From the NCBI GenBank assembly GCA_017461665.1, contig JAFTXI010000041.1, positions 1-64,000 of the forward strand: a DNA stretch of 64,000 nt, written 5' to 3'. The stretch's first letter is position 1. Each line of letters begins with the position of its first letter. Both the position numbers and the translations under genes were made by a program. Below, piece by piece: positions 9,288-61,479 of this stretch. The DNA comes from Bacteroidales bacterium. GTDB taxonomy: Bacteria; Bacteroidota; Bacteroidia; Bacteroidales; F082. Under the pieces are notes generated by a model that had not been told where the DNA came from, did not search any database, and saw nothing but the letters and a program-made list of their open reading frames with translations.

Positions 9288-10619
9288 ATGAGACGTGTCT
9301 TAATCATAACCTATTATTGGCCTCCATCGGGCGGTTCTGGCGTTCAGCGATGGCTGAAGATGTCGAAGTATCTGCCCGAAAATGGTTGGCAACCTGTTAT
9401 TTACACTGCCGAAGGTGCAGAATATCCAGTCGAAGATCTTTCGTTGGAAAAAGATGTGGCTCCTGAAGCTGAGATAGTGCGTTACCCAATTATTGAGCCT
9501 TATTCTTTTTATAAAAAATTTCTCGGAATAAAGAAAGATGAGAAGATAAAAGCAGGTTTTATCAATGAAGGAAAAAAGAAGTCTGTTTGGAAGGAAAATG
9601 TAAGTGTTTGGTTAAGAGGTAATCTGTTTATTCCTGACGCGCGTTGTTGGTGGATTCGTCCTTCAGTGAGATTTCTTAAAAAATATCTAGAAAAAAATTC
9701 TGTCGATGCTATTATATCTACAGGACCTCCACATTCTTTACATTTAATTGCTAAAAAGTTACACAAAAGATTTAACATTCCTTGGATTGCAGATTTCCGC
9801 GACCCTTGGACTGACATAGATTTCTTTAGTGAATTAAAATTAACAAATAGAAGTTTAAAAAAACATCATCGACTTCAACATCAGGTTCTTACCGAAGCAA
9901 ATAAGGTGGTTACTGTTGGATGGGATTGGGCGAAAGGTCTTGAGAGTCACGGCGCTAAAGATGTGGCTGTCATAACGAATGGTTATGATTTTAGTATTGA
10001 TGAGAAGTCGGAAGAAATTGAATTGTCGAAAGAATTCACTATGTCGCATGTAGGAATTGTTGGTGCTGCAAGAAATGCTGTCGTTTTTTGGGAAGCTCTC
10101 GGCGAGTTAATAAAGGATAATTCCTTGGATGGTTTTTCTAAGTTGTTAAAAATTAAATTGATAGGACAAGTTGATAATTCGGTTGTTGAATCAATAAAGA
10201 AGAATAATTTAGAGAGTAATGTCGATATAATTCCATATATTCCTCACGAAAAAGTCATTAAGGAACAATGTTCGTCGCAGGTTTTATTACTTTTTGTTAA
10301 CAATTCGCCTAATGCGAAAGGCATTCTCACAGGAAAAATCTTCGAATATATGGCTTCGGGCCGTCCTATTCTTGCAATCGGTCCAAAAGATGGCGACACT
10401 GCAATTATTCTTGATAAAACCCAAACAGGCGTCATTGTAGATTTTTACGATAAAGAAGAAATGAAGAAAACTATAATTGATTTGTTTAATAAGTTTAAAG
10501 AAAATCAATTGGTTACAAAGAAAAATGAATCTGTTGAGAAATATTCGAGAAGAGCTCTTGCAAAGGAATATGCTCAACTTATCGAAAACATTGTAGAGAC
10601 GCGACAATTATACAAATAA
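9288..10619 (+). CDS. Glycosyltransferase (GT-B, family 4-like)
   Basis: The 443-aa protein has an N-terminal acceptor domain starting with YYWPPSGGSGVQRWLK, a form common among Bacteroidota GT4-like enzymes. Its C-terminal donor domain reads GILTGKIFEYMASGRPILAI, which includes the E-Y-x-A-x-G-x-P sugar-nucleotide binding signature. It probably adds a sugar to a lipid-linked glycan at the inner membrane. The last eight residues (VETRQLYK) and the stop codon are encoded by a dispersed palindromic repeat at 10591-10652, so the native C terminus may have been replaced. Confidence 0.88.
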   Translation: MRRVLIITYYWPPSGGSGVQRWLKMSKYLPENGWQPVIYTAEGAEYPVEDLSLEKDVAPEAEIVRYPIIEPYSFYKKFLGIKKDEKIKAGFINEGKKKSVWKENVSVWLRGNLFIPDARCWWIRPSVRFLKKYLEKNSVDAIISTGPPHSLHLIAKKLHKRFNIPWIADFRDPWTDIDFFSELKLTNRSLKKHHRLQHQVLTEANKVVTVGWDWAKGLESHGAKDVAVITNGYDFSIDEKSEEIELSKEFTMSHVGIVGAARNAVVFWEALGELIKDNSLDGFSKLLKIKLIGQVDNSVVESIKKNNLESNVDIIPYIPHEKVIKEQCSSQVLLLFVNNSPNAKGILTGKIFEYMASGRPILAIGPKDGDTAIILDKTQTGVIVDFYDKEEMKKTIIDLFNKFKENQLVTKKNESVEKYSRRALAKEYAQLIENIVETRQLYK

Positions 10620-10652
10620 ATATTAACAATATGTAATTGACAAGTCTCAATT
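10591..10652 (+). repeat. Palindromic dispersed repeat, copy 1 (GTAGAGACG family)
   Basis: The left arm GAGACGCGACAATTA pairs with the right arm TAATTGACAAGTCTC (12 of 15 positions), enclosing AAATAAATATTAACAATATG. It overlaps the end of the glycosyltransferase gene and supplies its stop codon. Three related copies lie at 20296, 45543 and 61424. Confidence 0.8.
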
Positions 10653-10673
10653 GATATTTAAATAAATTAGAAA

Positions 10674-11432
10674 ATGAACGACATTAAAATAATCATACAA
10701 GCACGAACTGGTTCGACTCGACTTCCTCAAAAAATGATACTCCCATTTTATGAGAATGAAGGCGTTTTCTCATTGATACTTAAAAGATTAACTTCGATAA
10801 TAAAAAAGGAAAATATCATACTCGCTACTTCAACGAATGTTAATAATGATGTGTTAGAGGATATAGCAAAAAGTTATGGCGTAAATTGTTTTCGTGGTTC
10901 TGAAGATGATGTGCTTCAGCGTTTTATAGACGCTGCAACACAATTCAACGCTACTAAGTTAATTCGAGTCTGTGCCGATAATCCTTTCTTGGATTTAGAT
11001 TATCTTAATTTTCTTTTACAAAACTTTAATGAAAACGATTGCGATTATATGTCGTTCCTAACTTCAAATGGAACTCCTACAATAAAAACACATTATGGTT
11101 TTTGGGCTGAGGCTGTTACACTTAATGCCTTAGAAAAAGTGCAAACGATGACAAATGAAAGTCTTTATCACGAGCATGTGACGAATTTTATTTATTCAAA
11201 TCCAAATGATTTTAACATAAAGTTTTTTAACATTCCAGAAGAGATTAATCGTCACGATGATATAAGATTGACAATAGATACGAAAATTGATTTCGATATT
11301 CAAAAAGAGATATTTAACATTATTTATAAAAAGAATCCAAATTTCAATGCTTCTGATGTGATTGTTTTTTTGAATGAAAATCAACAATATATGAAGATTA
11401 TGAAAGATGAGATTTTAAAGAATCAAAAATAA
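10674..11432 (+). CDS. SpsF-like cytidylyltransferase (CMP-sugar synthesis)
   Basis: The 252-aa protein begins IIIQARTGSTRLPQKMI, the nucleotide-binding loop of the SpsF/CMP-sugar cytidylyltransferase family. It continues with RVCADNPFLD (metal-binding D) and LTIDTKIDFD, which are also family motifs. It probably activates a nonulosonic acid or related sugar with CTP. The next gene, a NeuB-type synthase, starts 4 bp later, which supports this role. The exact sugar cannot be read from the sequence. Confidence 0.82.
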   Translation: MNDIKIIIQARTGSTRLPQKMILPFYENEGVFSLILKRLTSIIKKENIILATSTNVNNDVLEDIAKSYGVNCFRGSEDDVLQRFIDAATQFNATKLIRVCADNPFLDLDYLNFLLQNFNENDCDYMSFLTSNGTPTIKTHYGFWAEAVTLNALEKVQTMTNESLYHEHVTNFIYSNPNDFNIKFFNIPEEINRHDDIRLTIDTKIDFDIQKEIFNIIYKKNPNFNASDVIVFLNENQQYMKIMKDEILKNQK

Positions 11433-11436
11433 GGAT

Positions 11437-12480
11437 ATGAGAAACGAGACATATATAATAGGTGAGATTGGTCAGAATCATAATGGTTCTGTGGATATTG
11501 CGAAACTCATTGTCGAGTTGGTTTCTCGACCTGTGAGGGAAGAATATTTTGGCATCGATTTGCAGCCGATGAATGCTGTGAAAATGACAAAACGCGACCT
11601 CGCTCACGAACTCTCCGATTCACAGATGTCGCGAATTTACGACTCCCCGAATTCATTTGGAACGACTTACGGTGAGCATCGCGCTTTCTTAGAACTTTCC
11701 GATGAACAACATTTTGAGGTCTATAAATTCGCAAAAGAAAGAGGTCTTGATTTTGTCGAGACTCTGTGCGCTCCTTCTTGCCTTAGTATTATGAAGTTCT
11801 TTACTCCTGATTATCTGAAAGTTGCAAGTCGCGACATGACAAATATTCCTTTGTTGGAAGCTTTGGCAGAGACGAAAATCCCGATGATTCTTTCAACTGG
11901 AATGGCTGGTAAGAAAGAATTAGATGAAGCTTTGGATGTTATTACAAAATATCATAATGAAATTTCAATACTACATTGCGTCTCGCAATATCCGACACAT
12001 CCGAAAAATTTGAATCTCAACACGATAACATATCTTAAAAAGAATTATCCTCAATATAAGATTGGTTTCTCTGATCATACTATCGGTATTTCTGCACCAG
12101 TCGCTGCTATTGCAATGGGTGCGGAAATCATTGAAAAACATGTCACTATCGACAGAAGAATGAAAGGCACAGACCAAGCTGGTTCTTTAGGTCCTGACGG
12201 CGTGAACAGAATGATTCGTGACATCAGAATAACTGAAATGTCGATGGGGAAAGAAGAGATTTTTATCGAACCTGAAGTAAAAAGTAGTAAAATAAAACTC
12301 GAACGTTCCATCGCAACAAATCGTAATCTTAAAATTGGTGAAGTCATTACAGAAAACGATATACATCTCTTAAGTCCGGGCGATGGTTTTAAATGGTCTG
12401 AAAGACAATCTGTTATAGGTAGAAAAGTTAAGAATGAAATACCAAGAAACGAAATTATTTATCCTCAAAATTTAGAATAG
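11437..12480 (+). CDS. N-acetylneuraminate synthase family protein (NeuB/SpsE type)
   Basis: This 347-aa enzyme condenses phosphoenolpyruvate with a hexosamine to make a nine-carbon acidic sugar. The N terminus YIIGEIGQNHNGS and the barrel motifs DYLKVASRDMTN, ILSTGMA, ISILHCVSQYPT, GFSDHTIG and EIIEKHVTID match NeuB. A C-terminal SAF/antifreeze-like domain (about residues 285-345, with RSIATNRNLKIGEVITENDI) closes the active site in family members. The following phosphatase starts on the base after the stop codon. Because a KdsC-type phosphatase follows, the product may be a 9-phosphate sugar (neuraminate or KDN type). That is inference. Confidence 0.9.
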   Translation: MRNETYIIGEIGQNHNGSVDIAKLIVELVSRPVREEYFGIDLQPMNAVKMTKRDLAHELSDSQMSRIYDSPNSFGTTYGEHRAFLELSDEQHFEVYKFAKERGLDFVETLCAPSCLSIMKFFTPDYLKVASRDMTNIPLLEALAETKIPMILSTGMAGKKELDEALDVITKYHNEISILHCVSQYPTHPKNLNLNTITYLKKNYPQYKIGFSDHTIGISAPVAAIAMGAEIIEKHVTIDRRMKGTDQAGSLGPDGVNRMIRDIRITEMSMGKEEIFIEPEVKSSKIKLERSIATNRNLKIGEVITENDIHLLSPGDGFKWSERQSVIGRKVKNEIPRNEIIYPQNLE

Positions 12481-13447
<967 letters not shown>

Positions 13448-13448
<1 letters not shown>

Positions 13449-14749
13449 TGAAATATAGTAATCTCGATGTGTTGGAGATAAATCGTATCTCGCAGATTGT
13501 CAAAGAAAAACAACCTTCTTTGTTTAAGCAGATTTGTATCTTCATCGGACAATTGTTTTATTATACTTTTGTCGTTCATTTTAAATATAAGACATTGCCT
13601 GTTAATTACAAAGGCCTACTTTTTTTCGGTGTCTCTCTCAATAACCGTCGTTCTTTGGAGCCTATAATCAATAATGTTGAAAACGGTACTTATCTTTATC
13701 TTAACAATCATGTCACAGATGTTCATAAAAGACGTGCCTGGTGGCATAGCATTCCTTACATTTTTTCCTTAATAAATCTTTACAAAAAATCTGAAAAAGA
13801 TAACAAAGCCTTGATTCTTAAATATTTCACGAGACTCTGGACAACCTATGGCCTTTATAAGATAGCAGGTGAGATGCTGGAAAAATATAAAGTTAAGGTT
13901 TTGGTCTTGGCAAACGATCATAATGATATTAATAGATGCTTGATTTTTAACGCGTTAGAAAAAGGGATCAAAACAGTTTATGTTCAGCATGCTTCTGTGA
14001 AGAAAGGTTTTCCACGATTGGATTTCACTTATTCTTTCTTAGACGGAAAAGAGTCGTTGGAGAAATATATTTATGCTGGAAAACCAAATGGCGAGGTCTA
14101 TCTCTCTGGCGGTGTCCGTTTCGATTTTCTTTACGATAAAATTGTTAGAAGAGATTCTGAAGTTAAGAAAATTGGGGTAGCAATCAATATGTTAGATGAT
14201 TTTGAGAAAGTTAAGAATCTTTTCCTTTTCTTAAAAAATGAAGGCTATAATGATTTAATTCTTCGTCCACATCCTCGTTATCAGAATCTTAATTCGGAAT
14301 GGTTAATAAAAAATAACATCGCAATCTCAAATCCTAAGGAAGAATCGTCATACGATTTCATCGCAAAGATTGACTTTATGATTTCCAACGAATCGGCAAT
14401 TCATCTTGACGCTTCTATAATGCATTGCCCTACTGCTCTTTATAATATGTCAGACAATGAAGTCTTGGACGATTATAATTTTGTTAAAAATAATTTAGTT
14501 AAGCTTGCGAAGTCAGATAACGACTTGTTAACATTTATTAAGAATAAAGATAACATCATACCTCCTAAAGAAATTTTACAATATTATAATGCTTCTTCCA
14601 ATTCTCATTTAGAAGGAAAATTAGGAATCACAATCGCAAGATTTTTAGAGTTACTCTGTCAAGGAAATGAAAAACAGTTTGATAAAGAACTTGGCTTCGT
14701 CAAGAACTCAGTTATTTTTCATGAAATCAATGATTCTTTCACAGGCTGA
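13448..14749 (+). CDS. Putative GT-B glycosyltransferase (capsule/sialyltransferase-like)
   Basis: I do not recognise a named family for this 433-aa protein. It contains [18 protein letters not shown], then [14 protein letters not shown] and a C-terminal half with LILRPHPRY and [17 protein letters not shown]-x-S, R-P-H-P and an S-N-x-S-x-x-H-L-D motif occur in capsule glycosyltransferases and polysialyltransferase-like GT-B enzymes. The position at the end of a nonulosonate operon suggests it may transfer that sugar. There is no signal peptide. Its last 42 bp overlap the 3' end of wecB on the opposite strand. Confidence 0.65.
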
Positions 14750-15886: not shown

Positions 15887-15897
15887 ACTTGTATGAT

Positions 15898-17109: not shown

Positions 17110-17288
17110 CTTATCTGTTTTAATGTGAATTGCAAAGATAATGAAAAGTCTAATGGCGAAGTACTAATGGAGAAGATTTTTTTCGATAAGGGACGGAAGA
17201 ACTTGAGGGTGGAGTTTTATAGAAATCCATTTTGAACTTCTGAGGTTAAAAAAAAATATTTATCTTTACAAAGTTTTTTTGAGACATT

Positions 17289-20295: not shown

Positions 20296-20358
20296 TTGTA
20301 GAGACGTACCAATTATACCTAAAAATATTAACAAGATATAATCGATGCGTCTCATTAT
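20296..20358 (+). repeat. Palindromic dispersed repeat, copy 2 (GTAGAGACG family)
   Basis: The arms GAGACGTACCAATTATA and TATAATCGATGCGTCTC are near-complementary and enclose an A-rich core with ATATTAACAAG. The copy lies 11 bp after the glycosyltransferase stop, in the sense orientation. Confidence 0.8.
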
Positions 20359-32328: not shown

Positions 32329-34335
32329 TTATTTTTCTTTTATCACTTTCATGCAACAATTTCTGCAGTCAAAATCTAATCTGAATCGACCTTTTTCATT
32401 AAAGAGATAAAGCGACTCGGCAGGTTTTCCTATCTCTTTGCAACAGATATTATTAGCATAACGAATACAATGTTTCGTCGTCATCACAACAAGTTCGTCA
32501 TCAGATTTAATTTTCTCCAAACCATCTTCAATTTCATTAACTCCATGAAGTTCATAAAACTCCCTGGCTTTCTTATTGATGACATTACCAAGATACGAAA
32601 GATGTTCTTTAGGGAAAATTGCATTTTGTTGTGAAGACGTACGTCCGTACGTCTCTACATGAGTGACGTCTCTACGTTCTCTTTCATCACGGTGTTTATC
32701 AATGAAATATGATTTTAATTTTTGAACCAAATCTTTTTTCATCTCACCAAGAACTGAGGCGCGGATAAAATAAGACGTTGGATAATTGTCGGTCACTGAG
32801 CTTGTCGAAGTGACGAAATTCTGCTGTCTGCCTTCGACAGGCTCAGGCACCGTTGTCTGTTGTCCGTTGTCAAAAAATATTTCAATATTCTCTACAGAAA
32901 ATTCCGTGTCGCCCCATTGTGACAGTTTACTTTTTATATTATCTAACGCCCTTTCTACATTATTAGCGACTTCTTTTTCTATTGAAATATTTGTCGTAAT
33001 ATATTCTGAATCTGCATTATGTAATTTAGCCGATAATGCAAATCCATCTTCTGTGTCGGAGAATCTCAAGTCGATTTTAATCTTTCGGTTCCCTTGTGAT
33101 TTCTCCACTTCTTTCTGCCAGACGATATCGTGATTTCTGAAAATCTTGCTTCCTTCTATCTTGAATCGTGTCATCATAGAAACGTCGGTGTTACTGCTAA
33201 TAGTCTGTAATCTAACCACTTGTTGTCTCATTGACTTATCGACTTGTTGACTTAAATCTACACCATTAACATTAAATCCAAGAAGATTGTTTTCTCTGTC
33301 TAAGAAACAAAGTCCGTCGCCGTTATGAAGTTCTTTGTTTGTTCTGATAGTCACTGACTTATTCTTAACTTTTTCTATCGTCCCTAGATATTCTCCCATC
33401 GACTTTGGTGAATATGGAGCGTCGATATATTTCTGTCTGCCGTGGATGAAATAGTCGGTGAAACCACGAGAGAACGATTTTTCCGGTGCTGGATAGAAAG
33501 TAGGATTACTCTCGCCCCGAGAGCTTCTGCAAATGTCGTCACGTCGTTCGATGATTTCGTCTATTGTTTTTCTATAAAAAGCAGTGACGTTTTTTACGTA
33601 ACCGATGTCCTTTAAGCGACCTTCAATCTTGAAAGAAGTGATTCCTGCGTCGATGAGTTCTTCTATGTTTTTTGAATTATTCAGATCTCTTAAAGAAAGA
33701 AGATGACGATTGCTAATCAGGCGTTTGCCTTCTTGATTTTCGAGATTCCAGCTGAGTCGGCAAGGCTGAGCGCAGGCACCTCTGTTAGCAGAACGTCCAC
33801 CAATGACATGACTTAAATAACATTGTCCGCTATATGAAACGCAGAGCGCGCCGTGAACAAAATATTCCAAAGGAACGGAAGTCTTTGAACGAATGTCTTT
33901 TATCTCATCGATACTCAATTCTCTTGCAAGAACGACTTGCGAGAAACCAACATCTTCCAAGAATTTAACTTTCTCTGCATCAATATTATGACATTGCGTG
34001 GAAGCGTGCAGCGCGATAGGAGGCATATCCATATTGAGCAATGCCATATCTTGAACGATGAGCGCATCGACGCCGGCATTCCAACAATCGTAGGCGAGCT
34101 TGCGAGCCTGTTCCAACTCACTGTCGAACAACAAAGTATTTAAGGTGACATAAACCTTGGCATCGAAGAGAGCAGCATGTTTGCACAAAGCCTCGATGTC
34201 TTCTATACTGTTGCCGACTTTCTCACGCGCCCCGAAGCTCGGACCGCCAATATACACAGCGTCAGCCCCATGATTGATAGCAGCGATTCCTATTTCCAAA
34301 TTCTTCGCCGGCGATAAAAGTTCTATTTTTTTCAT
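32329..34335 (-). CDS. U32 peptidase-family protein, RlhA-like, with repeat-derived insertions
   Basis: The 668-aa protein begins IELLSPAKNLEIGIAAINHGADAVYIGG and has the U32 signature FVHGALCVSYSGQCYLSH followed by GGRSANRGACAQPCR. Length and C-terminal domain fit the RlhA (YdcP) group that hydroxylates a 23S rRNA cytidine. Cysteines for an Fe-S cluster are present (GACAQPC, CCMKV near the end). Three repeat-derived segments interrupt the C-terminal part: about residues 490-516 (a VPEPVEGRQQ-type REP element) and about 548-569 (RERRDVTHVETYGRTS). These probably form surface loops. It lies 3 bp after the decayed AlbA gene. Confidence 0.85.
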   Translation of the reverse strand: MKKIELLSPAKNLEIGIAAINHGADAVYIGGPSFGAREKVGNSIEDIEALCKHAALFDAKVYVTLNTLLFDSELEQARKLAYDCWNAGVDALIVQDMALLNMDMPPIALHASTQCHNIDAEKVKFLEDVGFSQVVLARELSIDEIKDIRSKTSVPLEYFVHGALCVSYSGQCYLSHVIGGRSANRGACAQPCRLSWNLENQEGKRLISNRHLLSLRDLNNSKNIEELIDAGITSFKIEGRLKDIGYVKNVTAFYRKTIDEIIERRDDICRSSRGESNPTFYPAPEKSFSRGFTDYFIHGRQKYIDAPYSPKSMGEYLGTIEKVKNKSVTIRTNKELHNGDGLCFLDRENNLLGFNVNGVDLSQQVDKSMRQQVVRLQTISSNTDVSMMTRFKIEGSKIFRNHDIVWQKEVEKSQGNRKIKIDLRFSDTEDGFALSAKLHNADSEYITTNISIEKEVANNVERALDNIKSKLSQWGDTEFSVENIEIFFDNGQQTTVPEPVEGRQQNFVTSTSSVTDNYPTSYFIRASVLGEMKKDLVQKLKSYFIDKHRDERERRDVTHVETYGRTSSQQNAIFPKEHLSYLGNVINKKAREFYELHGVNEIEDGLEKIKSDDELVVMTTKHCIRYANNICCKEIGKPAESLYLFNEKGRFRLDFDCRNCCMKVIKEK
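32635..32679 (-). repeat. GTACGGACGTAC palindrome in the U32 gene
   Basis: The 28-bp block at 32635-32662 is identical to 35515-35542 in the radical SAM gene and is read as H-V-E-T-Y-G-R-T-S in both. A second GTAGAGACGTCAC half-copy follows directly. The core is self-complementary. Confidence 0.85.
32790..32872 (-). repeat. REP-like palindrome plus GTTGTCTGTTGTC repeat in the U32 gene
   Basis: The arms CGGTCACTGAGCTTGTCGAA (32790-32809) and TTCGACAGGCTCAGGCACCG (32833-32852) match as an inverted repeat in 17 of 20 positions. A GTTGTCTGTTGTCCGTTGTC repeat is attached directly. The entire block is in frame. Confidence 0.8.
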
Positions 34336-34338: not shown

Positions 34339-35070
34339 TTACGAAGTTATCAATTCTTTTGCTTTTTCAGTTAACCTGTATGCTTGTTTTGAACTATTAG
34401 GTTTGTCCTTGATGGTTGGTTCTATTAAATTAGCTTCAATAAGTGGATTTAAAATATTTTGTCTAAAACGATTTTTATTTTTTTCTCCAATCTTAAGCAT
34501 AAGTGATGATATAGAAAGTTCTTTAGCAATAAGAAATACTAACACTAATCTTGCAATATTCTCATTAGTGTCGTTTAACTTAGGACAGACTGGGGACAGA
34601 CTTAGGACAGACTGGGGACAGACTGGGGACAGACTGGGGACAGACTGGTTTGAATCTGTTTCTTTAATATAAAATATCATTGTTACTCTGTCGGGTTGTA
34701 CTTTTTCTTCAATAGTAGGATGAATCCATTTGTTGTCGTCGCATCCTTTTATGATAAAATCAGCTCCGCTTCCAGCTTTTTCTCCTATACCGAGTTGTGT
34801 GAAGAATTTTTGCAAGATAGGATTTCTGCTTAAGAAAACAGGACGAATGTCATAACTTGATCTTGGAATGCGAAATATTAAAATCCTATTGTTGTCAATA
34901 GAAGTATCAATGACGTCTCTTTCAGTTAACATTGTTGCACTTACTTTTTCTTTGTTGTGTGCGCAGTCCCAAAAACTTTCAGGAAATCCCCCTTTAGCAG
35001 ATTTGAATTCTAATTCACAGTTTTCGGAAACATTAATCAAATTTTTAATATGTTTTACTATGGTTTTCAT
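34339..35070 (-). pseudogene. Decayed AlbA_2/Schlafen-type ATP-binding regulator with internal deletions
   Basis: The frame is open for 243 aa, but it looks like three fragments of a roughly 450-550-aa family joined in frame. Residues 1-35 match the start of the AlbA_2 domain (ENCELEFKSAKGGFPESFWD). Residues about 36-80 match its end (KVSATMLTERDV, ILIFRIPRSSYDIRPV). Residues 82-135 match the end of the ATPase region (LGIGEKAGSGADFI and PDRVTMIFYI). The region in between, including the GHKL-type ATP site, is missing. A 66-bp tandem repeat follows, then a winged-helix-like C terminus (ILNPLIEANLIEPTI). It may still be translated. Family members are DNA-binding regulators. Confidence 0.65.
34583..34648 (-). 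repeat. Tandem repeat, six 11-bp units
   Basis: There are exactly six copies of GGACAGACTGG (one ends in TTA). The unit is not a multiple of three, so gain or loss of one unit shifts the frame of the gene. In the present frame it encodes S-L-S-P-V-C-P-Q-S-V repeats. Confidence 0.95.
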
Positions 35071-35286: not shown

Positions 35287-37047
35287 TCAATTGTTAATTA
35301 CAAAAACGCTTCCCACATCAATCAGATCTCCGTCGTATAATTCGATGAGATTGAAGTTATTATCTTTAAGGAATTTATCTAATTCTTCTTTGTCTTTTAA
35401 ATTCTTCGTGCTGCCACAAACGATGAGATTATTCTTCCAAACCCCACAACATCCAGGGAAAAATCCATTCTTCTGTCCTTCTAATTTAATTTGTTTTGGA
35501 TCGATGTACAACACAGACGTACGTCCGTACGTCTCTACATGAAATTCGTGTGGACAATGACTATTGTCTGTTGTCTGTTGTCTGTTGACCTCGTTGAAAA
35601 TTCCTTTATCTGACGTAATAAACACGTTCTCATTCAATGCCAATAAATTACATCTCGTATATCCTTGATTCACATGAATGTGATTTTCATACAAAGATAA
35701 AATTGTCGAATCGGTGTGTTTCAAATTATGAATCAAAAGATTTCCAATACCGACAGCGTTATAAGGAACCGTTTTCGGGTATTTCTTCCCGACTTCTTTT
35801 TTTCCTTCAATAAGATTTACCTTCCTCTTTCTCAGTTCTTTAATAATTTTCTTCGGAGCATTTGGAGCGTAAATCAAAGAGTTGTCTCTTTGGAAGAAGA
35901 AAATGTCCGGATGTGAAGATATTGAATTGTAAGTTATTTCCGTAGGATTAAGAAATAAAACATTTCCCAATTTTTTTAGATTTTTCTTCGCTTCTTCCGG
36001 CATTCTTGAATCAGCGATGATTGTTGGGAGTTCTTCTTTTGAAGTTATTGTAAAATCAAATTGTCCGTCGTCAATAGTTTTGAAATCAACGCTGCGGAAC
36101 TTTTCCAACAACATTTTCTTATTCTCGCCTTTCCAACCAATTGCGTGATTTATCTGCGATTTCGGTACTTTTATAATGATGTCTTTGCTTTTCAGTTTTT
36201 CAGATTCTGAATTTCTCAAATTCTCAAATTTCTCTTTCCAGATATGAGAGAAAACCATCTCGGCAAAATTCTTATGATAGGGACCAGTGACGTATGCCTC
36301 GCCATCAAGCTCATTGGAAGCATGAAGCCCAATTCGCAGAACTTTAACTTGATTATCAATAAAATAAGAATATAAATCTGCTGATTCAGAAATTGCGTCT
36401 TTTAAGGAGAGAGAATTATATTCTTCAGACATATACATCTTTTCCAATTCTGTGTCTTTCACAACGATACAAGGATAAATACGCGTCTCTTTTGCTCCAA
36501 GATTCACTATATCTCTCGCAGTTTGAGAATCGATTTCCTTGTTAGATGATGGCAGACCTATCATCATCTGCAACCCTAACGTAATATCTTCTGAAAGAAT
36601 TATTTGCGAAGCCTCGACAATATCTTTATAGGAATGACCGCGTTTGCATTTATTTAAGACCAAATCATTCGTGCTTTGCGCACCGAGTTCGATATTTCTC
36701 ATTCCATATTGTCGAAGTTCTTTAACTCTATGATAACTAATATAATCGGGACGCGTGCTACAGCGAATACCGTGAATCAGATTCTTATCAAGATAGGGTT
36801 GTACAACTTCAAGATAATCGTTCTGCATTTCAAGAGGAAGACCTGTAAAATTACCTCCAAAAAACGCCACCTCAACAAAACGGTACTCATCCTTAAACGA
36901 CGAAAGATGATTGTCAATGATAATCTTAACTTCCTCTGGCTTAATAATATCGCTTAATCCCGTAATGCTAAACTGATTGCAATAAACGCATCGATAAGGA
37001 CAAGCGAGTTCGGGCATGAAAACCGGTATGTTGTAGTGTTTTATCAT
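35287..37047 (-). CDS. Radical SAM protein fused to a DUF6873-like domain
   Basis: The 586-aa protein has an N-terminal radical SAM domain with CPYRCVYC (C16, C20, C23), AFFGGNFTGLP and RCSTRPDYIS. It belongs to the Elp3/YhcC-like group. From about residue 335 a second domain begins (LPTIIADSRMPEEAKKNLKK) with PYNAVGIGNLLIHN, HVNQGYTRCNLLAL and FFPGCCGVW, ending LIDVGSVFVI. The pattern looks like the arginine-deiminase-fold DUF6873 family. Repeats are inserted in frame: about residues 272-288 (RNSESEKLKS) and 486-511 (VNRQQTTDNSH...HVETYGRTS). The substrate is unknown. Confidence 0.8.
   Translation of the reverse strand: MIKHYNIPVFMPELACPYRCVYCNQFSITGLSDIIKPEEVKIIIDNHLSSFKDEYRFVEVAFFGGNFTGLPLEMQNDYLEVVQPYLDKNLIHGIRCSTRPDYISYHRVKELRQYGMRNIELGAQSTNDLVLNKCKRGHSYKDIVEASQIILSEDITLGLQMMIGLPSSNKEIDSQTARDIVNLGAKETRIYPCIVVKDTELEKMYMSEEYNSLSLKDAISESADLYSYFIDNQVKVLRIGLHASNELDGEAYVTGPYHKNFAEMVFSHIWKEKFENLRNSESEKLKSKDIIIKVPKSQINHAIGWKGENKKMLLEKFRSVDFKTIDDGQFDFTITSKEELPTIIADSRMPEEAKKNLKKLGNVLFLNPTEITYNSISSHPDIFFFQRDNSLIYAPNAPKKIIKELRKRKVNLIEGKKEVGKKYPKTVPYNAVGIGNLLIHNLKHTDSTILSLYENHIHVNQGYTRCNLLALNENVFITSDKGIFNEVNRQQTTDNSHCPHEFHVETYGRTSVLYIDPKQIKLEGQKNGFFPGCCGVWKNNLIVCGSTKNLKDKEELDKFLKDNNFNLIELYDGDLIDVGSVFVINN
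35515..35591 (-). repeat. GTACGGACGTAC palindrome and GTTGTCTGTTGAC repeat in the radical SAM gene
   Basis: The 28 bp at 35515-35542 are identical to 32635-32662. Nearby, 35563-35590 carries three tandem TTGTCTG units plus TTGACC. Both are in frame and add about 26 residues in total. Confidence 0.85.
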
Positions 37048-44495: not shown

Positions 44496-44575
44496 AGTTT
44501 AAAGTTTAGAGTAGTTTAAAAGTTTAATGTTTTTAAGTTAATTATTAAGTTCTGAAATTTTGAGGTTTTGAAGTT

Positions 44576-45526
44576 TTAAAGTACTATGTCTGAATAATTA
44601 AAAATCACATTAAGACCTTTACTTTCAAAATAATTTTTAACTTTTGTTTTGTCCCAAGATGTCGCTGCCATGAAAAAGTCGCCGCCCCAAGCTCCCAAAG
44701 ATTTCATTTCACCCTCAAAATCGGAGAAATATTTTTTTATTCTATTCTGTTCCAAGCAAGCCGCCATTATCTCTTCATGTACCTTCAAGAAATAACAGAA
44801 GTCGCTGAGGTTCTGCACTTCCGGTAGTATTTTGCTTATCTCAGAAATTGCATTTATCTCAGTAGCGAAACTCTTCTCTTTTGCAAGAAAAGCCTTCACC
44901 TCGTTAGATGAACTCTGCTTATGTCCTTGATAAACAAAATAAAGATTGTCTTTAAACTCAGGATTGAAATTATCAATACTCACAAAAGGGCTGTTGATTG
45001 TTGACTGTTGTCTGTTGACTTGATAAAATATTGGTGTTTCGGCTTTTGCGCAGGCTATGTCGTAGCCCGATCCTTTGAAAGTAGAAACCAACAACAGATA
45101 AGGATTTATTCCTGCCCATTCCGACACATTATTAATTAATGTAGAGCTACTCCCGAGTCCCCATTGCGGATCGAAATCTAAACAAGTAGTGAATTTATAG
45201 TCGTGGGAGTCGGTGAAGATATTATCGTTTAATGATTTGACTTTAGATAAGATAATGGAAAGACGTTCTGCTTTTTCTTTATCGTCGGTTTTTAAGACAG
45301 AGAAGTCATCTCTATTTAAAATTACTGAAAACCAAGGCTCTGAACTACGAACTATGTCTGTTGACTTTCTGAAAGCGTCCCAATAAATAAGGTTCTCGTT
45401 TGAATCTAAAGACTCCACCTCTAAGCTCTGACCTAATTTCAGAGGAAGAGCCAATGCCGTCGCTCCTTTCAAGACGAGATATTCGCCTGTCAACAAAAAC
45501 TTACCGTTAGACTTGTAATAATTCAT
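44576..45526 (-). CDS. GYDIA-family GHMP kinase (candidate phosphomevalonate kinase)
   Basis: The 316-aa protein starts SNGKFLLTGEYLVLKGATALALP and contains the GHMP-like ATP loop DPQWGLGSSSTLINN. The characteristic motif FKGSGYDIACAKAETPIFYQ follows, defining the GYDIA group of Bacteroidota. Placed between decarboxylase and HMG-CoA reductase it is the best candidate for the missing phosphomevalonate kinase step. That is inferred from context. A GTTGACTGTTGTC repeat (44991-45021) encodes VNRQQSTINS directly behind the motif (about residues 171-180). Confidence 0.85.
   Translation of the reverse strand: MNYYKSNGKFLLTGEYLVLKGATALALPLKLGQSLEVESLDSNENLIYWDAFRKSTDIVRSSEPWFSVILNRDDFSVLKTDDKEKAERLSIILSKVKSLNDNIFTDSHDYKFTTCLDFDPQWGLGSSSTLINNVSEWAGINPYLLLVSTFKGSGYDIACAKAETPIFYQVNRQQSTINSPFVSIDNFNPEFKDNLYFVYQGHKQSSSNEVKAFLAKEKSFATEINAISEISKILPEVQNLSDFCYFLKVHEEIMAACLEQNRIKKYFSDFEGEMKSLGAWGGDFFMAATSWDKTKVKNYFESKGLNVIFNYSDIVL
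44991..45021 (-). repeat. GTTGATTGTTGACTGTTGTC repeat in the GYDIA kinase gene
   Basis: The in-frame low-complexity repeat encodes V-N-R-Q-Q-S-T-I-N-S, close to VNRQQTTDNSH in the radical SAM protein. Confidence 0.7.
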
Positions 45527-45542: not shown

Positions 45543-45605
45543 GATAAGACGCATCAATTACATATTGTTTATTTTTAAAGGTGTAATTGGTACGTCTCTA
45601 CAATC
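45543..45605 (-). repeat. Palindromic dispersed repeat, copy 3 (GTAGAGACG family)
   Basis: On the minus strand GTAGAGACGTACCAATTACA is followed by CCTTTAAAAATAAACAATAT and then TAATTGATGCGTCTTA. It is nearly identical to copy 4 at 61424. It supplies the last 14 codons (CRDVPITPLKINNM) and the stop of the HMG-CoA reductase gene. Confidence 0.85.
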
Positions 45606-46946
45606 ATTCCTAATTGTATTAATAAATTTTTCAACTTCGGAATAAGAAACCACCTTATCTTTAAAATAGTCTGCGGCTTTTGTTTTTTCCTCTTCTGTAG
45701 CGCCAAGCTGATTCAATATATTTGCGAGGTGCATTTTCATGTGACCTTGCTGTATTCCTTTTGTCGTCAACGACTTAACGGCGGCGTAGTTATTAGCGAG
45801 TCCCATTGTTGCAGCAATCATCATCAGTTCTTGGGCTGAAGGATTTCCGAGAAGTTCCAAGGATTTCTTTGCCAAAGGATGTAATGACGTCAAGCCGCCC
45901 ACTGTACCGAGAGCGAGAGGCACTTCGAGAGTGAATCGGAAGATACCGTTTTGAATATCAACGTATGAGAGACTTTGGTAAGAGCCGTTTCTTGAAGCAT
46001 AAGCGTGACCTGCTGCTTCGGTAGCTCTGAAGTCGTTGCCTGTTGCGATGACGACTGCGTCTATTCCATTGTAGATACCTTTGTTGTGAGTCGTTGCACG
46101 ATACACATCGATATGAGCAATATCGACGGCTTTCTTGAATTTCTCTGCAAAAGCCTTTCCGTCAAGACATTCGTCAACGCCATTGAGTTCATCAACAGGA
46201 CATTCCACCCAGACTTTCACCTTACATTCAGGAGTATAGTTCGACAAGATGCACATCACTATTTCAACATGACGTTCATTTTCGTTTAAGTTAATTTGTT
46301 TTAAGAAAAATTCCTGAAGCGTCCGACCGAAGGATTCCAATATAGAGTTAATGAAGTTAGCTCCCATGGAGTCGCAGGTGTTGAAGGTGACGAGGAACTG
46401 ATAATAATCGTGGATTTTATCTGTCATGTCAACGAGTTGAATATCCAATATTCCTCCGCCGCGTTGTCTCATCTTCTCTGTTATCGACGATGTTTTCTTA
46501 ATAAATTCGTCTTTAATTTCCGGGAGTAAGTCGTTGAGAATCTTCTTATCGCCTTTCCAACAGAAATGCACCTGACCTACTTTCTTAACATCGATAACTT
46601 CTGCGTGAAAGCCGCCTCTTTCGCCCCAGAATTTCGCTGCTGCCGAAGCCGCTGCCACAACAGAGCTTTCTTCAATAACCATAGGAACGACGTACGACTT
46701 GTCGTTGATAATCACGTTGGGAGAAACTCCGTAAGGAATATGGAAATTGGAAATGGTATTTTCGCTAAACTCGTCAAATTGTTTTTGTTTCTCATGATCC
46801 TGATACCAGAAACTTTTCAACAAAGAAATAAACTCACTCGGATTATCGATATATTCTGACACGACCTTCAGCTTGTCTTCTTTCAACAGCTTTGAAAAGC
46901 CTTTCTTTATCAGGTCTCTTTTTCTTATGCGCCTAACTTCTTCCAT
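45558..46946 (-). CDS. mvaA: Hydroxymethylglutaryl-CoA reductase, class II
   Basis: The 462-aa enzyme interconverts HMG-CoA and mevalonate. The class II signature PMVIEESSVVAAASAAAKFW carries the catalytic Glu. FNTCDSMGANFINS, ATTHNKGIYNGID, VVIATGNDFRATEAAGHAYA and PLALGTVGG follow, with the catalytic His near QQGHMKMHL. It is somewhat longer than the 430 residues of well-known members. The last 14 residues come from a dispersed repeat and end it. It is the first gene of the mevalonate cluster. Confidence 0.94.
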   Translation of the reverse strand: MEEVRRIRKRDLIKKGFSKLLKEDKLKVVSEYIDNPSEFISLLKSFWYQDHEKQKQFDEFSENTISNFHIPYGVSPNVIINDKSYVVPMVIEESSVVAAASAAAKFWGERGGFHAEVIDVKKVGQVHFCWKGDKKILNDLLPEIKDEFIKKTSSITEKMRQRGGGILDIQLVDMTDKIHDYYQFLVTFNTCDSMGANFINSILESFGRTLQEFFLKQINLNENERHVEIVMCILSNYTPECKVKVWVECPVDELNGVDECLDGKAFAEKFKKAVDIAHIDVYRATTHNKGIYNGIDAVVIATGNDFRATEAAGHAYASRNGSYQSLSYVDIQNGIFRFTLEVPLALGTVGGLTSLHPLAKKSLELLGNPSAQELMMIAATMGLANNYAAVKSLTTKGIQQGHMKMHLANILNQLGATEEEKTKAADYFKDKVVSYSEVEKFINTIRNDCRDVPITPLKINNM

Positions 46947-53447: not shown

Positions 53448-53480
53448 TGTTTATTTATGCCAAACTTAAATATAAAAGAC

Positions 53481-53488: not shown

Positions 53489-53513
53489 CAGCCTAAAAAT
53501 CGGGGAAATCTAA

Positions 53514-54911: not shown

Positions 54912-54948
54912 TAATTCTAATTTTTTTAAACATTTAAATAACAAAAAA

Positions 54949-56649: not shown

Positions 56650-56696
56650 TTCCGATAGAATCTTAGAACCTCAGAAATTGAGAATTTGAGAAATTG

Positions 56697-56741
56697 AACG
56701 CGTCAAGTGCATCGTTTTTGTGCTTGACGCGTTTTCCTTTT
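56697..56741 (+). terminator. Terminator after the thioredoxin-fold pair
   Basis: The 11-bp stem AACGCGTCAAG (56697-56707) pairs with CTTGACGCGTT (56723-56733), followed by TTTCCTTTT. The low-complexity AACCTCAGAA / AACCTCAAAA repeats flank it on both sides. Confidence 0.88.
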
Positions 56742-56790
56742 AAACCTCAAAAATCAGAATCTCAAAATCTCATAGACTTCTAAAATATCG

Positions 56791-56798
56791 TATATTTG
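56791..56798 (+). promoter_or_regulatory. Candidate -7 element for the serine hydrolase
   Basis: TATATTTG matches TAnnTTTG and lies 22 bp before the ATG at 56821. No clear -33 box is seen. Confidence 0.45.
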
Positions 56799-56820
56799 CA
56801 ACTCATTTAAAAGAAGTCTG

Positions 56821-58086
56821 ATGTCGAAGAATTTATATATCTTATCAATTACATTAATAACATTGTTTTTCTTTTCTTGTTCAAAGAAGGAAGAGCAGTT
56901 TATAGAGCCTGAAGTAGTTAAGGAATTACCTGTTGTCAATGTTGATAGTATCTTCATCGATCTTGATGCAGATATTATTGAGAAGAAAGCAGCGAGTGTC
57001 GATAAAGTTTTCAGTAATTTAAGAAGGAAGACCGGTTTCAACGGTACGGTGCTTTATGCTGAGCAAGGACGCATCGTTTATAACAAGGCGTGGGGCTTCC
57101 GTAACTTAAGAAAGAGGAGCGACAGTCTTCGCGTGGAAGATGTCTTCCAGCTTAGTTCGGTGTCGAAGATGTTTACTGCCGAGGCTGTTATGATTTTGAA
57201 GAACGAAGGTAAGATAGATTATGACGTCGATATCAGAGAATATATTCCGGAGTGGCCTTACGAAGGTATCACCACGCGACTTCTGCTGCATCATCGCTCG
57301 GGACTCTCGCGTTATGAGAGTTTGGCAGACGCCAAGTGGCCCGACAGGAAGATACCTTTCCTCAACGAAGACATGATAGCTTTTTACGTAGAGCATCAGC
57401 CTGATCCTTATTTCAAACCTGATAATGGATTTAATTATAGCAATGTCAATTACGCGCTTTTGGCATCGATAGTGGAGCGCGTGTCGGGTATGTCGTTTGC
57501 CGATTATATGAGGACGAAGATCTTCGAGCCACTCTGCATGGACAATTCCTATATCTACGAGATGCGTCCCGACACCGCAGTATCTTTATATATTGAAGAT
57601 GTGGTGCAAGGTTATTATATGGACCGTCGTCGTCCGATGCAGGCTCCCAACGAATATCTCAACGGCGTCAAAGGCGATAAGATGATGATGTCTAACACCG
57701 AAGATATGTTTAAGTTCTTGACAGCCGTCGATTATGGCTTGTTGTTGCCCGACTCTATACAAGACGAGGCTTTTGTGCCGGGCAGTCCTAAGAGCAGGAA
57801 ACGCAAAGACAACTACGGCTTTGGCTGGAGGATACCAGGTAAATATTCAGGATGTTATTTCCATTACGGATGGTGGAAAGCCTATCGTTCTTTTGTCATA
57901 AGAGACGATGTGAATGACAAGACTATCATCATCTTGACGAATACCAACAAAGGACCGAGTTCGGATCATTTCTGGAATATCATCAAAGATGCGACTAACT
58001 CTTTGCCGCCGTCATCAGTGAATATCTCCTATTGGGAGACGAAGAACGGCAAACCGTTCCAGTATCGTTCTTATGTGAGTCGATGA
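56821..58086 (+). CDS. Serine hydrolase lipoprotein (class C beta-lactamase family)
   Basis: The 421-aa protein has a lipoprotein signal (LITLFFFSC, C20). The beta-lactamase/transpeptidase-like domain (about residues 70-395) has S113-V-S-K116, Y206-S-N208 and H348-Y-G350, the three motifs of the class C/PBP-like esterase family. Such enzymes are D,D-peptidases, esterases or amidases. The true substrate cannot be told from the sequence. It stands alone after a terminator. Confidence 0.88.
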   Translation: MSKNLYILSITLITLFFFSCSKKEEQFIEPEVVKELPVVNVDSIFIDLDADIIEKKAASVDKVFSNLRRKTGFNGTVLYAEQGRIVYNKAWGFRNLRKRSDSLRVEDVFQLSSVSKMFTAEAVMILKNEGKIDYDVDIREYIPEWPYEGITTRLLLHHRSGLSRYESLADAKWPDRKIPFLNEDMIAFYVEHQPDPYFKPDNGFNYSNVNYALLASIVERVSGMSFADYMRTKIFEPLCMDNSYIYEMRPDTAVSLYIEDVVQGYYMDRRRPMQAPNEYLNGVKGDKMMMSNTEDMFKFLTAVDYGLLLPDSIQDEAFVPGSPKSRKRKDNYGFGWRIPGKYSGCYFHYGWWKAYRSFVIRDDVNDKTIIILTNTNKGPSSDHFWNIIKDATNSLPPSSVNISYWETKNGKPFQYRSYVSR

Positions 58087-58130
58087 GTCAATGAGTCTAT
58101 AAGTTTAGAAGTTCTTAAGTTTTAAAGTTC

Positions 58131-59585
58131 TTAAGTTCCCCAGAGTTCCAGAAATCCAGAGTTCCCCAAAAAGCAAGAGACGCCACAAAAGTGAAGTGAC
58201 GTCCCCACATTTTTAATTGTTAATTGTAAATTCTTAATCACTTTAACAACTTCTCCATTGACGTTAAAGAAATAGACACCAGGATTATAATCTGAAACGT
58301 TGATTTCTATTTCTTTAGAAGACATCTCGATTTCTTCAACCAACATTCCGAGACAGTTATAAACCTTAACCACCGAATGCTGACTGCCGATAGCAGAAAG
58401 TTTGACAATGTTCTGGGCCGGATTTGGATAGATGGAGAGATTGTCTGAAGATGAAGTATATTCTGTGGTAGATGTGCCGTCTCTTTTTATTATGTAGCAT
58501 ATAGTAATATTATCACTAACATCAGGATTGTAGCCCGCTAAAACAAGGCTGCCATCGTCTAACGTATGAGCACTTAAAAAAGTTGGATATGAGGTATATG
58601 CTATTTCGAGTTCCCATTGAATATTGAGGTCTTTATCAAGATGGATGATATAAATGTCTTTGCCTTTTTTATCTCTATAAAAAGCATACAAACTACCGTC
58701 ATAACATTCTATAATTGATTTACCTTCAATTGAATAATTTTGAGGACTTACATCATTAAATATGGGACTGACAGTCTTGCTTCCAATTACGTTAAGGTCC
58801 TTATCATATTTGTCCACATCCAGTGATTATATCTTGTTGTTTCATCATAAAACAACAAGGTATCATAATGCACAAGCTGCAGATGCTCGTCCAAAACAGC
58901 ATAAAATGCAGTACATCAGATTCTAACCAATCATTAGGCAATTCTATCTCCCTAAAGAAAGTACAACCGTATTGTATTGGATTGCTATTGTGTATATTAA
59001 AATGAAACATTGTCCTTCTCCAATCTGATGGTAACTCTATATAATTGATGTCTTTAATATTTCCATAAACATCCATCTTTACATATAATTGTTTTGCTCA
59101 TCTGTCTCGCACGTTATTATGATATCATTATTGATGTCTGTTGATAAACTATAATTTAGATTGAAACCTTCAATATCGAAAGGAACATCTACGGTATTTA
59201 TTATATTTAAGTCATTATCAAAGAAAACAGCCTCGTAATGATACATAACATCCGTCCAATTGACATAAAATCCAGACATTATATTACAATTTTCTTTAAA
59301 AGGATTTCTTATGAATGGATTAAAAAACTGTATTGATTTAAAATCGGTATAGACAGATTTTATCAGATTTCCTTGTCTGTCCGATTTTAGCAAATAAGAC
59401 CCCACTTTATTATCACCCTCATAACAAGCTTCCAACATAATTATATTGCCATCGGATGCAATCAAAGAGTGATTACAGTTGTGAAGTTGATAGGAGTCGA
59501 TAGAGAGGTTTTCAAATTTATAGTACTCCTGTCCATAAATTGTTATTGAAAACATCATGAGCGACACGAATATTATTCTTTTCAT
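58131..59585 (-). pseudogene. T9SS-secreted protein gene broken by three frameshifts
   Basis: Three open segments join into one protein of about 480 aa if the frame is changed three times: near 59092-59095 (A run), 58913-58919 and 58805-58835. Each change is the equivalent of one missing base, and together they restore the first frame. The hidden middle piece reads FYAVLDEHLQLVHYDTLLFY, clearly protein-like. The N terminus has a signal peptide (MKRIIFVSLMMFSITIYGQ). The C terminus has a T9SS domain (NLSIYPNPAQNIVKLSAIGS) whose natural end VVKVIK has lost its stop and runs 32 residues into repeat sequence. Sequencing errors are an alternative. Confidence 0.75.
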
Positions 59586-59602
59586 GATGATTTGGATTTA
59601 AA

Positions 59603-60460
59603 TTAATTTACTGGTAATTGTGGCGTGATTGATGAATAATGAATTTTACCGTATGTAACATGCAAAACATGCTGATAATAAGTACAATCCTTATTGCCTA
59701 AATTAGGATAATATCCACCTTGATATGGCTCTAACAGGGATGATATATAATTCAAACCTAATATATAATTGTCGCTAACAAATCCCATCTCTATAATCAG
59801 TCCAAGATAAGAATCCAAATAATATGCCATATCCTCTCTATTTAAATAATCATCTGCAGAAAAATTATTTGAATATATTCTTGACGGATAATCAGCATGA
59901 TAAAGCGACATAGTCATTAGATCAGTAAAATACATTCTTCCTGGAATTTCCTCTTTAATTGGCATAAACATGTTCATATAATAGCTTAAAGTATCAACCG
60001 CCTCTGTTTCCCAATAATAAGTAGAACCTTTTGGGAACAATGACAATGGAATACTATCATTATCAAAATAGTGATATCCAAAGTCAGAATCTCTTCCTGA
60101 AGTAGCTATAACAGTTCTGACTGTATTTCCACTGCGGGTTGATGTTTCATCTTGAATTTCAGGTTTGATAAATAAAACGTTTTTGTTCTCCAAATCACTT
60201 GAATTGTAAAATGCGAGCACTTCGGTAGAGATTTCCTGCAATGAAGCATTGATGTCGTTCAATGAAACGTATCCGTCGTTTACATTTATAGTAGTATAAA
60301 TAGTGTCGTAAACAACTTGTGTTTTTTCTACGTTTGCGTTACAGAATTGGAAATTAAGACAAGCAGATAAATGCCATTGTGCGTCTTCCAACAGCATCGG
60401 TTCGCTGTCTCTTGTGGCAGTTTTTAAATCTTTCATAAATCCCAACAGATATTCATCCAT
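59603..60460 (-). CDS. Probable lipoprotein of unknown function, start uncertain
   Basis: No family was recognised. The 285-aa frame from the ATG at 60460 begins MDEYLLGFMKDLKTATRDSE. However, the frame stays open upstream to about 60573 and there encodes a lipobox-like AFNSCKKDELTNNNETKA, with no ATG before it. This suggests the original signal peptide is damaged or its start lost. The protein is rich in Tyr, Asp and Ser and has a YHYFDNDSIPLSLFPKGS region. It sits 17 bp before the broken T9SS gene in the same direction, and both may be remnants of one unit. Confidence 0.6.
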   Translation of the reverse strand: MDEYLLGFMKDLKTATRDSEPMLLEDAQWHLSACLNFQFCNANVEKTQVVYDTIYTTINVNDGYVSLNDINASLQEISTEVLAFYNSSDLENKNVLFIKPEIQDETSTRSGNTVRTVIATSGRDSDFGYHYFDNDSIPLSLFPKGSTYYWETEAVDTLSYYMNMFMPIKEEIPGRMYFTDLMTMSLYHADYPSRIYSNNFSADDYLNREDMAYYLDSYLGLIIEMGFVSDNYILGLNYISSLLEPYQGGYYPNLGNKDCTYYQHVLHVTYGKIHYSSITPQLPVN

Positions 60461-60600
60461 ATTCTCTATCTCATTAGGATTGAATGTAGAGGTTAATGCT
60501 TTGGTTTCATTGTTGTTAGTTAATTCGTCTTTTTTACATGAATTGAATGCATGACTTCCGAAATATAAATTAATACTTATTTTTGGAAAAAAATAACCAA

Positions 60601-61423
60601 ATGAGAAAATGTTTTAAAATAGTATTGGTATCCTTGCTGCTTGTCTCCTGTTCAAAACAAGACACTGCGTCACGTATGTTGTCGATGGCACAGTCGTGCG
60701 TGGAGACTTCTCCCGACACCGCATTAATATATTTGGATTCTATCCTTATACCTGAGAAGTTTCTAAAAGAAGAGAAATACATGGAATATCATGTTACAAA
60801 AGTGCAAGCCAAATACAAGAATTACGACAATATAAAAGGTGATACCAATATTTTTGAAGTAAAACATTACTTCAACAAAAAAGCACAACGTCCAATATTC
60901 AATGCTCAAGGTTCAGAATACCGCATGTATGCCAACCTCTATGGTTGTGTTTATGAGGAGATGAAAGAATACGAAAAAGCCTTAAACGATTATAAAACAG
61001 CTTTCACAATAGCCGAAGCAACAAAAGACTCTCTCTACATGTGGAGAATCAATAATTATATAGGAAATATATTTAACAAAAAAAACATACTGGGAAGAAG
61101 CATTGGAGACATATAAGAAATCACTTGTCTTAGCTAAGACTGAATTTGAAAAGGCGAGAAGCTACATACAGCAAGATTAGTTTGTTTGTCAAGAAGACAA
61201 TCCTCAGTTAAATCAGACGGAGTATAAGGTTTGTCTATTGTCGCTCATGCAGATAGGCATTGGAGAGACAGCGAAGATTGTAGGATTGGGAATAGACTCT
61301 GTGAAGAAGGCACGATCCAACATCAGGAGGAAATTGGAAATCGACAAGCGACTTCGTATTTCTGAGTTTATCCTCAGGGAGTACTATGCTAAGAAGAAAG
61401 TCACCGAATCAATGAGTCAATAA
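60601..61423 (+). pseudogene. Degraded TPR lipoprotein with C-terminal HTH
   Basis: The start at ATG 60601 gives a lipoprotein signal (MRKCFKIVLVSLLLVSC) and TPR-like helices up to NNYIGNIFNKK. A run of eight A at 61078-61085 breaks the frame. Removing one A continues into WEEALETYKKSLVLAK, which then meets a stop at 61178. In the same frame, directly behind it, comes the C-terminal HTH domain (YKVCLLSLMQIGIGETAKIV, ISEFILREYY) with no ATG of its own before 61238. Intact family members have around 500-600 aa with a membrane helix and coiled coil between the TPR and HTH regions; that part is missing. Confidence 0.75.
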
Positions 61424-61479
61424 GTAGAGACGCGCCAATTACACCTTAAAAATAAACAATATGTAATTGACACGTCTTC
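61424..61479 (+). repeat. Palindromic dispersed repeat, copy 4 (GTAGAGACG family)
   Basis: GTAGAGACGCGCCAATTACA, CCTTAAAAATAAACAATATG, then TAATTGACACGTCTT: nearly identical to copy 3 at 45543-45605. It starts directly after the stop of the broken HTH gene. Confidence 0.85.

Follow-up and report, generated by a model that had tools for sequence, protein, structure and literature searches.

GTAG-tagged repetitive extragenic palindromic (REP) sequences are described, in the excerpts of PMC3733652 (Di Nocera et al. 2013) drawn on here, as repeats of 20-40 bp with stems of 6-13 bp that occur in high copy number near the 3' ends of genes, often give a TAG stop codon through their GTAG, and are attributed to REP-associated tyrosine transposases (RAYTs). 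The excerpts of PMC6006769 (Quentin et al. 2018) describe one RAYT type with one repeat type, and a RAYT subclass, 2.4, that is abundant in Bacteroidetes, carries NH[IFV]H and YIxNNP motifs and has repeats within the gene. For the E. coli REP, the portions of PMC8266576 (NAR 2021) consulted report that TnpA-REP activity depends on a bulge of conserved mismatches, and that selection experiments favoured the bulge bases only moderately. We analysed a palindromic repeat with four copies in a 64,000-nt stretch of a Bacteroidales genome (assembly GCA_017461665.1, contig JAFTXI010000041.1, positions 1 to 64,000; hereafter the window). The repeat is a new member of the GTAG REP/RAYT systems, unusual in length, in a preserved stem mispair and in its polarity at gene ends, and ordinary in kind. 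It very probably represents a long, lineage-specific, non-autonomous GTAG-type REP family that was spread in trans by a RAYT, a transposase of the HuH/Y1 type, with selection probably producing its concentration in sense orientation at gene 3' ends.

A sequence-only reading of the window had described a repeat lying always in sense orientation at four gene 3' ends. All four copies were recovered with slightly shifted bounds: a diagnostic 21-mer pattern, GTAGAGACGYRNCAATTAYAC, matched four times in the window and never in 100 dinucleotide shuffles. Bounds from a covariance model (R1, built from 14 copies) and a profile of 144 copies make them 55-56 nt long. Copy 1 (10593..10648, + strand, 69.6 bits to R1) supplies the end of a glycosyltransferase (9288..10619, +), namely VETRQLYK and a TAA stop. 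Copy 2 (20298..20353, +, 73.0 bits) starts 12 nt past the stop of a family-2 glycosyltransferase. Copy 3 (45546..45601, -, 84.4 bits) supplies the C terminus RDVPITPLKINNM of HMG-CoA reductase (45558..46946, -), part of the preceding C codon and the TAA stop. Both coding assignments in the earlier reading hold, including the use of a different frame in the second gene, where the repeat-derived end reads CRDVPITPLKINNM before the stop and the first C codon borrows one flanking base. Copy 4 (61424..61478, +, 79.1 bits) lies between convergent genes, 307 nt after an open reading frame (ORF) ending at 61116 and 76 nt short of the 3' end of the convergent recO. Hence the claim that each copy sits at the 3' end of a gene of its own direction stands for copies 1-3 but not for copy 4. 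The shared end given as GAGACG(T/C)(A/G)CCAATTA needs correction for copy 1, which reads GAGACGCGACAATTA rather than ..CCAATTA.

The family is large. Searching the genome itself (G000) with R1 at E <= 0.001 gave at least 144 copies, a lower bound since 150 candidates were scored. In the fetched loci of this genome R1 matched 345 times at E <= 0.1, often on the opposite strand of a copy already matched, and we retained 148 non-overlapping copies from the best 150 aligned matches. The copies are mostly extragenic, 2 of the 148 lying wholly within called genes. Across 144 copies each position of the GTAG at the 5' foot of the hairpin, where REPs of this type carry GTAG or GTGG, is 96-99% invariant; the sequence upstream is unconserved and the opposite end stops at CGTCT(C), so that the foot is polar. 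The loop is A-rich and about 20 nt long. The stem, AGACG-NNN-CAATTAC against its partner, covaries, with CAATTAC, CAACAAC, CAATGAC, CAATCAC and CAACGAC each facing a matching arm, in counts that take in related copies rather than independent events; covariation among the 14 seeds alone is modest, with four pairs changed on both sides, as many as in 74 of 500 shuffles. Stem pair 10-52 is mispaired in 217 of 231 copies (T.G in 134, C.A in 83) and Watson-Crick in 10, the 231 being distinct copies of 50-62 nt from G000 and its relative G060, out of 251 before duplicates and odd lengths were removed. In having an imperfect stem that keeps its mismatches above GTAG, the hairpin resembles the E. coli REP as described in PMC8266576; unlike that bulge, the mispair here alternates between T.G and C.A. 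Most copies are single: 32 of the 148 lie within 150 nt of another, and 6 of the 18 such neighbour pairs are inverted, the arrangement checked for bacterial interspersed mosaic elements and REPINs. The repeat matches the excerpted account of GTAG-tagged REPs (PMC3733652) in its GTAG at one foot of the palindrome, its high copy number, its location between same-direction and convergent genes near 3' ends and its supply of TAG stops, and departs from it in the long A-rich loop, the prevalence of single copies and the strong sense bias.

The decisive evidence for the REP reading is a set of RAYT loci bracketed by the repeat (REPtrons), with the RAYT frame disrupted in G000 but open in relatives. 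A PF01797 search of the genome gave no match; the idea that the clade has no RAYT was overturned when an alignment of RAYTs from relatives' proteins found relics here and genes in relatives. One relic, at C23:85101-85588 (about 1271-1821 of locus L447), is divided between two frames, with the break at the HuH motif, and both pieces are 58% identical to a RAYT of genome G053. Long repeats bracket it, at about 120 nt from the matched stretch on the upstream side and 40 nt on the downstream side, and downstream of it 81-nt and 57-nt forms alternate in opposite orientations. The break may reflect a genuine pseudogene or a mistake in the assembly. A second relic, C22:7700-7885 (L439), is a fragment in which two TGA codons were reported, with no R1 match in its 3.2-kb locus at E 0.001. 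In relatives, R1 matches above 40 bits lie within 700 nt of the open RAYT frame at 5 of 15 loci (L436, L443, L444, L448 and L449, with genes at G053:C84, G064:C14, G065:C22, G065:C156 and G047:C65); the 15 were drawn from 25 RAYT match rows, the others being fragments, the two relics and the open frames G065:C103 and G047:C28. From these loci we infer that their RAYT moved the repeats.

The RAYTs partly resemble subclass 2.4 as excerpted from PMC6006769, a tentative assignment made by motif and in-gene repeats rather than by the published tree. All 15 have the HuH motif (NHVH or NHIH in 13, DHIH or DHVH in two), and GTAG repeats flank the genes and lie within four of the 15 (L434, L435, L441 and L442). 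Unlike subclass 2.4, this genome's own gene is split over two frames. At L441 (G047:C48) the RAYT frame contains a GTAG hairpin and shows repeated AIHRVH residues, as described for that subclass. GTAG repeats at L416:1590-1613 and L418:2717-2803 lie in the ORF that immediately precedes an open RAYT frame, the stop of the former overlapping the start of the latter. The RAYT loci also carry a 75-84 nt relative of the repeat with the same foot and a longer stem and loop (L447:1834-1914 and 2031-2111; L436:1219-1301 and 2022-2104; L443:2314-2397; L444:2191-2265; L448:223-306), which is rare elsewhere, with two found by a simple pattern in the fetched loci of G000. A distinct set of six Y1 proteins reached through PF01797 in the clade (one each in G009 and G047, two each in G053 and G060) is of the YIxNQ type; no long-family copy lies within 700 nt of them except for a weak 22-bit match at the G047 locus, the two G060 loci having been checked for GTAG-GAC-like starts only. 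A PDB sequence search with one RAYT query returned chance-level matches only.

Several observations weigh against this assignment. At mostly 55-57 nt, and 75-84 nt for the form at RAYT loci, the repeat exceeds the 20-40 bp given in the excerpted description (PMC3733652) and also a broader REP range of 20-50 nt, which is descriptive rather than mechanistic. No intact RAYT was found in G000 with PF01797 or the RAYT alignment, and the alignment query found none in G009, G027, G040 or G060, all rich in copies (G027 and G040 being 91% and 93% complete); the repeats therefore seem to outlive their enzyme. At ten of the 15 RAYT loci the long repeat is missing within 700 nt (in one case a copy lies 715 nt away), and nine of these ten have other GTAG repeats nearby or in the gene, such as GTAGGGACACATCGAATGTGTCC at G047:C113. 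A RAYT tree places the RAYTs with long repeats in a single nine-row group (96/98) together with two that have short repeats; both pieces of the C23 relic belong to this group, but stand apart. The Y motif reads YIxNNP, as in subclass 2.4, in 4 of the 15, and NP is missing from the other 11 (YIKNNV in G053), as it is from the relic (YIKNNI). Finally, among copies 20-60 nt past a stop the sense bias persists, at 35:12, which fits an origin by trimming of C termini only if the old 3' ends have decayed.

Among 60 same-genus genomes, a high copy number of the long repeat (62-94, with at most 94 candidates scored) was found in G000, G009, G027, G040, G047 and G053. The remaining 54 gave 0 to 17 matches with best E values of 7e-6 to 1e-3, which we take to be, for the most part, different GTAG repeats sharing this foot. 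The six high-copy genomes look close, HMG-CoA reductase or the glycosyltransferase being 81-85% identical to the window proteins, a closeness judged by protein identity only, with no HMG-CoA reductase match in G053 and a best glycosyltransferase match of just 70% in G040. Candidatus Limimorpha records reach 70-79% at HMG-CoA reductase. The closest genome found is G060, the roe-deer colon Bacteroidales metagenome-assembled genome RGIG4154, with a 93% identical HMG-CoA reductase and at least 147 copies. By these relationships the window probably comes from an uncultured gut Bacteroidales. The flanks of 38 of the 148 copies could be aligned to fetched G060 loci; 28 have a copy nearby and 10 do not (counting the HMG-CoA reductase site, after reassignment, as occupied), a degree of sharing that is overstated since the G060 loci were fetched for holding copies. 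Three of the 27 first scored as shared lie in opposite orientation, and in eight G000/G060 pairs the flanks match by eye on both sides. We also noted single sites with a different repeat subtype in the sister species (L132:7391 and L355:5704; window position 45546 and L260:1731), attributable to replacement, conversion or re-insertion.

Presence and absence could be followed at the two genes that end in the repeat. The glycosyltransferase insertion is common to G000, G027 and G060. G047, G009 and G053 lack it, and in the first two of these the gene overlaps the start of the next by a few codons. The G027 copy has CAATAAC/GTTATTG where G000 has CAATTAT/GTAATTG, both sides of the stem having changed. 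At the HMG-CoA reductase site G060 carries a copy of another subtype, whose GTAG gives the TAG stop, and the ends readable in G009, G047, G040, G025 and G049 lack the repeat; nine further rows went unread because the script's motif missed them. Full-length HMG-CoA reductase matches extend to residue 442-459 of 462; all that pass 449 run through a stop codon. Full-length glycosyltransferase matches reach 432-442 of 443, so that the evidence there lies in differing residues and not in match length. In all the ends read, repeat-less orthologues carry other C-terminal residues. Inspection by eye of the few presence/absence sites that could be read showed no target duplication.

We then placed the copies relative to genes, as called by a simple codon-usage script rather than a trained gene finder. 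In G000, 133 of the 148 copies lie outside genes and are flanked by called genes: 65 between same-direction genes in sense, 23 in antisense, 37 between convergent and 8 between divergent genes. In G060, 88 of 103 copies were placed, 45 sense, 13 antisense, 20 convergent and 10 divergent, a replicate that is not fully independent, its insertions being partly shared with G000. For comparison, all fetched loci of the two genomes together contain 338 same-direction, 80 convergent and 98 divergent gaps that measure 60 bp or more. The sequence-only statement that the repeat is always in sense is thus too strong, with three of four copies in the window and 65:23 genome-wide between same-direction genes; nor are positions and orientations random elsewhere, given 65:23 and 45:13 and the bias to gene 3' ends. 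Within -60 to +60 nt of stops, sense exceeds antisense by 80:21 in G000 and 50:12 in G060, counts in which an element between convergent genes can appear twice, and at 60-400 nt the bias is gone or reversed (19:34 and 13:13). Sense copies lie a median of 27 nt (G000) or 22 nt (G060) past the stop and overlap the ORF end in 11 of 102 and 7 of 65 cases; in 10 of the 11 G000 overlaps the full stop codon is in the repeat (in four, it is the TAG of GTAG), and in the eleventh only the last base of the stop.

These patterns suggest how the family may have spread. A RAYT would act on single-stranded DNA and spread in trans non-autonomous elements that consist of an imperfect hairpin with GTAG as guide tetranucleotide. 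Insertions away from gene ends would be purged by selection, leaving a build-up just past genes. The sense strand would bring stop codons quickly in most frames, GTAG itself holding TAG, and this probably explains the sense excess: an insertion into the last codons would just trim the C terminus, so that the sense orientation is probably kept. In agreement with this, 83 of 143 copies have a stop in all three sense frames (57.6 in shuffles, standard deviation 4.9) and 5 of 143 in all three antisense frames (30.0, standard deviation 6.1). The mean distance to a stop is 24.4 nt in sense against 28.7 in shuffles (standard deviation 0.73), and 43.0 nt in antisense against 34.1 (standard deviation 0.67); since the copies are related, these deviations overstate significance. 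The asymmetry fits selection against antisense read-through without proving it, and because the sense strand is stop-rich and the antisense strand stop-poor we prefer tolerance of short C-terminal truncation, as yet unproven, as the cause of the bias. The earlier suggestion of a miniature mobile element that targets, or is tolerated only at, mRNA ends is well supported by the copy number, the sharp GTAG boundary, the bracketed RAYT loci, presence and absence among relatives, and the sense bias at 3' ends.

Under an alternative that we regard as possible but rather unlikely, the coding strand at gene 3' ends would itself be the target of the transposase, for example as single-stranded DNA exposed where transcription ends, and the bias would be insertional rather than selective. 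The peak of the bias within 60 nt of stops is in line with such targeting, and the GTAG head lies closer to the sense stop in 24 of the 37 (p 0.10) and 15 of the 20 copies (p 0.04) that sit between convergent genes. A rough proxy for replication strand, based on third-position skew, shows no link to orientation (37/78 and 27/58); this also suits the alternative, and we rejected replication strand as the sole cause of orientation. However, the flanks hold no conserved target sequence, and copies also occur near gene starts and, in a few cases, inside genes.

We consider it improbable that the repeat is retained for a function in RNA, as a hairpin at the mRNA 3' end that blocks exonucleases, affects translation termination or ends transcription and thereby sets position and orientation. 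The 3'-end position and the stem covariation agree with such a role, as does the folding of all four window copies into RNAs more stable than shuffles (z -3.1 to -5.9); furthermore, an excerpt of PMC12306157 relates those E. coli REPs that follow an ORF by no more than 15 nt to potential translational control. Yet with 30 nt of flanks the glycosyltransferase copy is no longer distinct (z -0.01), the HMG-CoA reductase copy remaining so (z -4.1), the preserved mispair weakens the RNA stem, and the antisense strand folds better on average than the sense strand (-20.3 against -17.6 kcal/mol). T.G and C.A copies should favour opposite strands, yet with both genomes pooled their sense bias is the same (68:23 and 34:11), though the two genomes lean opposite ways. 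We therefore rejected RNA hairpin strength as the sole cause of orientation. A terminator role, also raised by the sequence-only reading, has weak support: 32 of the 148 copies are followed within 0-2 nt by a T-rich tail and 9 are preceded by one, but 38 are followed by an A-rich tail. The 32 copies could terminate transcription; the other 116 lack a T-rich tail and the stem core is AT-rich, so that the GC-rich hairpin and U run of an intrinsic terminator are generally missing and there is little sign of that role. A terminator scan of one window stretch found 5 against 6.9 expected, and no Rfam family matched the window at gathering score.

We give little credence to a further possibility, that the strand asymmetry is itself selected, making the mobile hairpin a portable, harmless stop module that lands at gene ends in a single orientation and rewrites C termini lineage-wide. 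Hardly credible is a miniature inverted-repeat transposable element of a DDE-type transposon unrelated to RAYTs: the short, palindromic, multi-copy form would suit one, but the GTAG foot is polar and at one end only, the same repeat brackets RAYT loci, and no target duplication was apparent, although no search was made for DDE elements with these ends.

For a GTAG-type REP family mobilised by a RAYT, stop-codon supply is already known and not new. The passages of PMC3733652 and PMC3116915 consulted make no statement on a sense bias of single repeats. A literature search combining "repetitive extragenic palindromic" with Bacteroidales listed one paper, whose title concerns Neisseria secretion systems; an earlier listing of this repeat is possible. 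The analysis links a repeat that is abundant in uncultured gut Bacteroidales to a RAYT, related genomes having REPtrons in both open and broken form. The measured bias at gene ends makes it testable whether REP polarity originates at insertion or through selection that removes antisense read-through. The repeats rewrite protein C termini, as in HMG-CoA reductase and a glycosyltransferase.

The window also holds short GTAG hairpins missing from the earlier reading. One with the same foot, GTAGAGACGTACGGACGTACGTCT, lies at 35515..35538 (-) within a radical-SAM ORF, and another at 32635-32658, with a second GTAGAGACG start (together 32635..32675, -), within a U32 peptidase ORF. In the loci used for the long family we found 79 such hairpins, 29 of them within genes, with a weaker and non-significant orientation bias (25:13, p 0.07). 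Hairpins are commoner after GTAG than after nearly all of 11 control tetranucleotides, CTAG (3/146) being similar. GAGTC-rich runs surround many copies of the long repeat. Degenerate 8-nt tandem repeats resembling AAGTTCTG lie in or beside intergenic gaps at 61483-61560, 44534-44587 and 58088-58141, and 11-nt tandem units, ACTGGGGACAG, occupy 34578-34654 within a called minus-strand gene.

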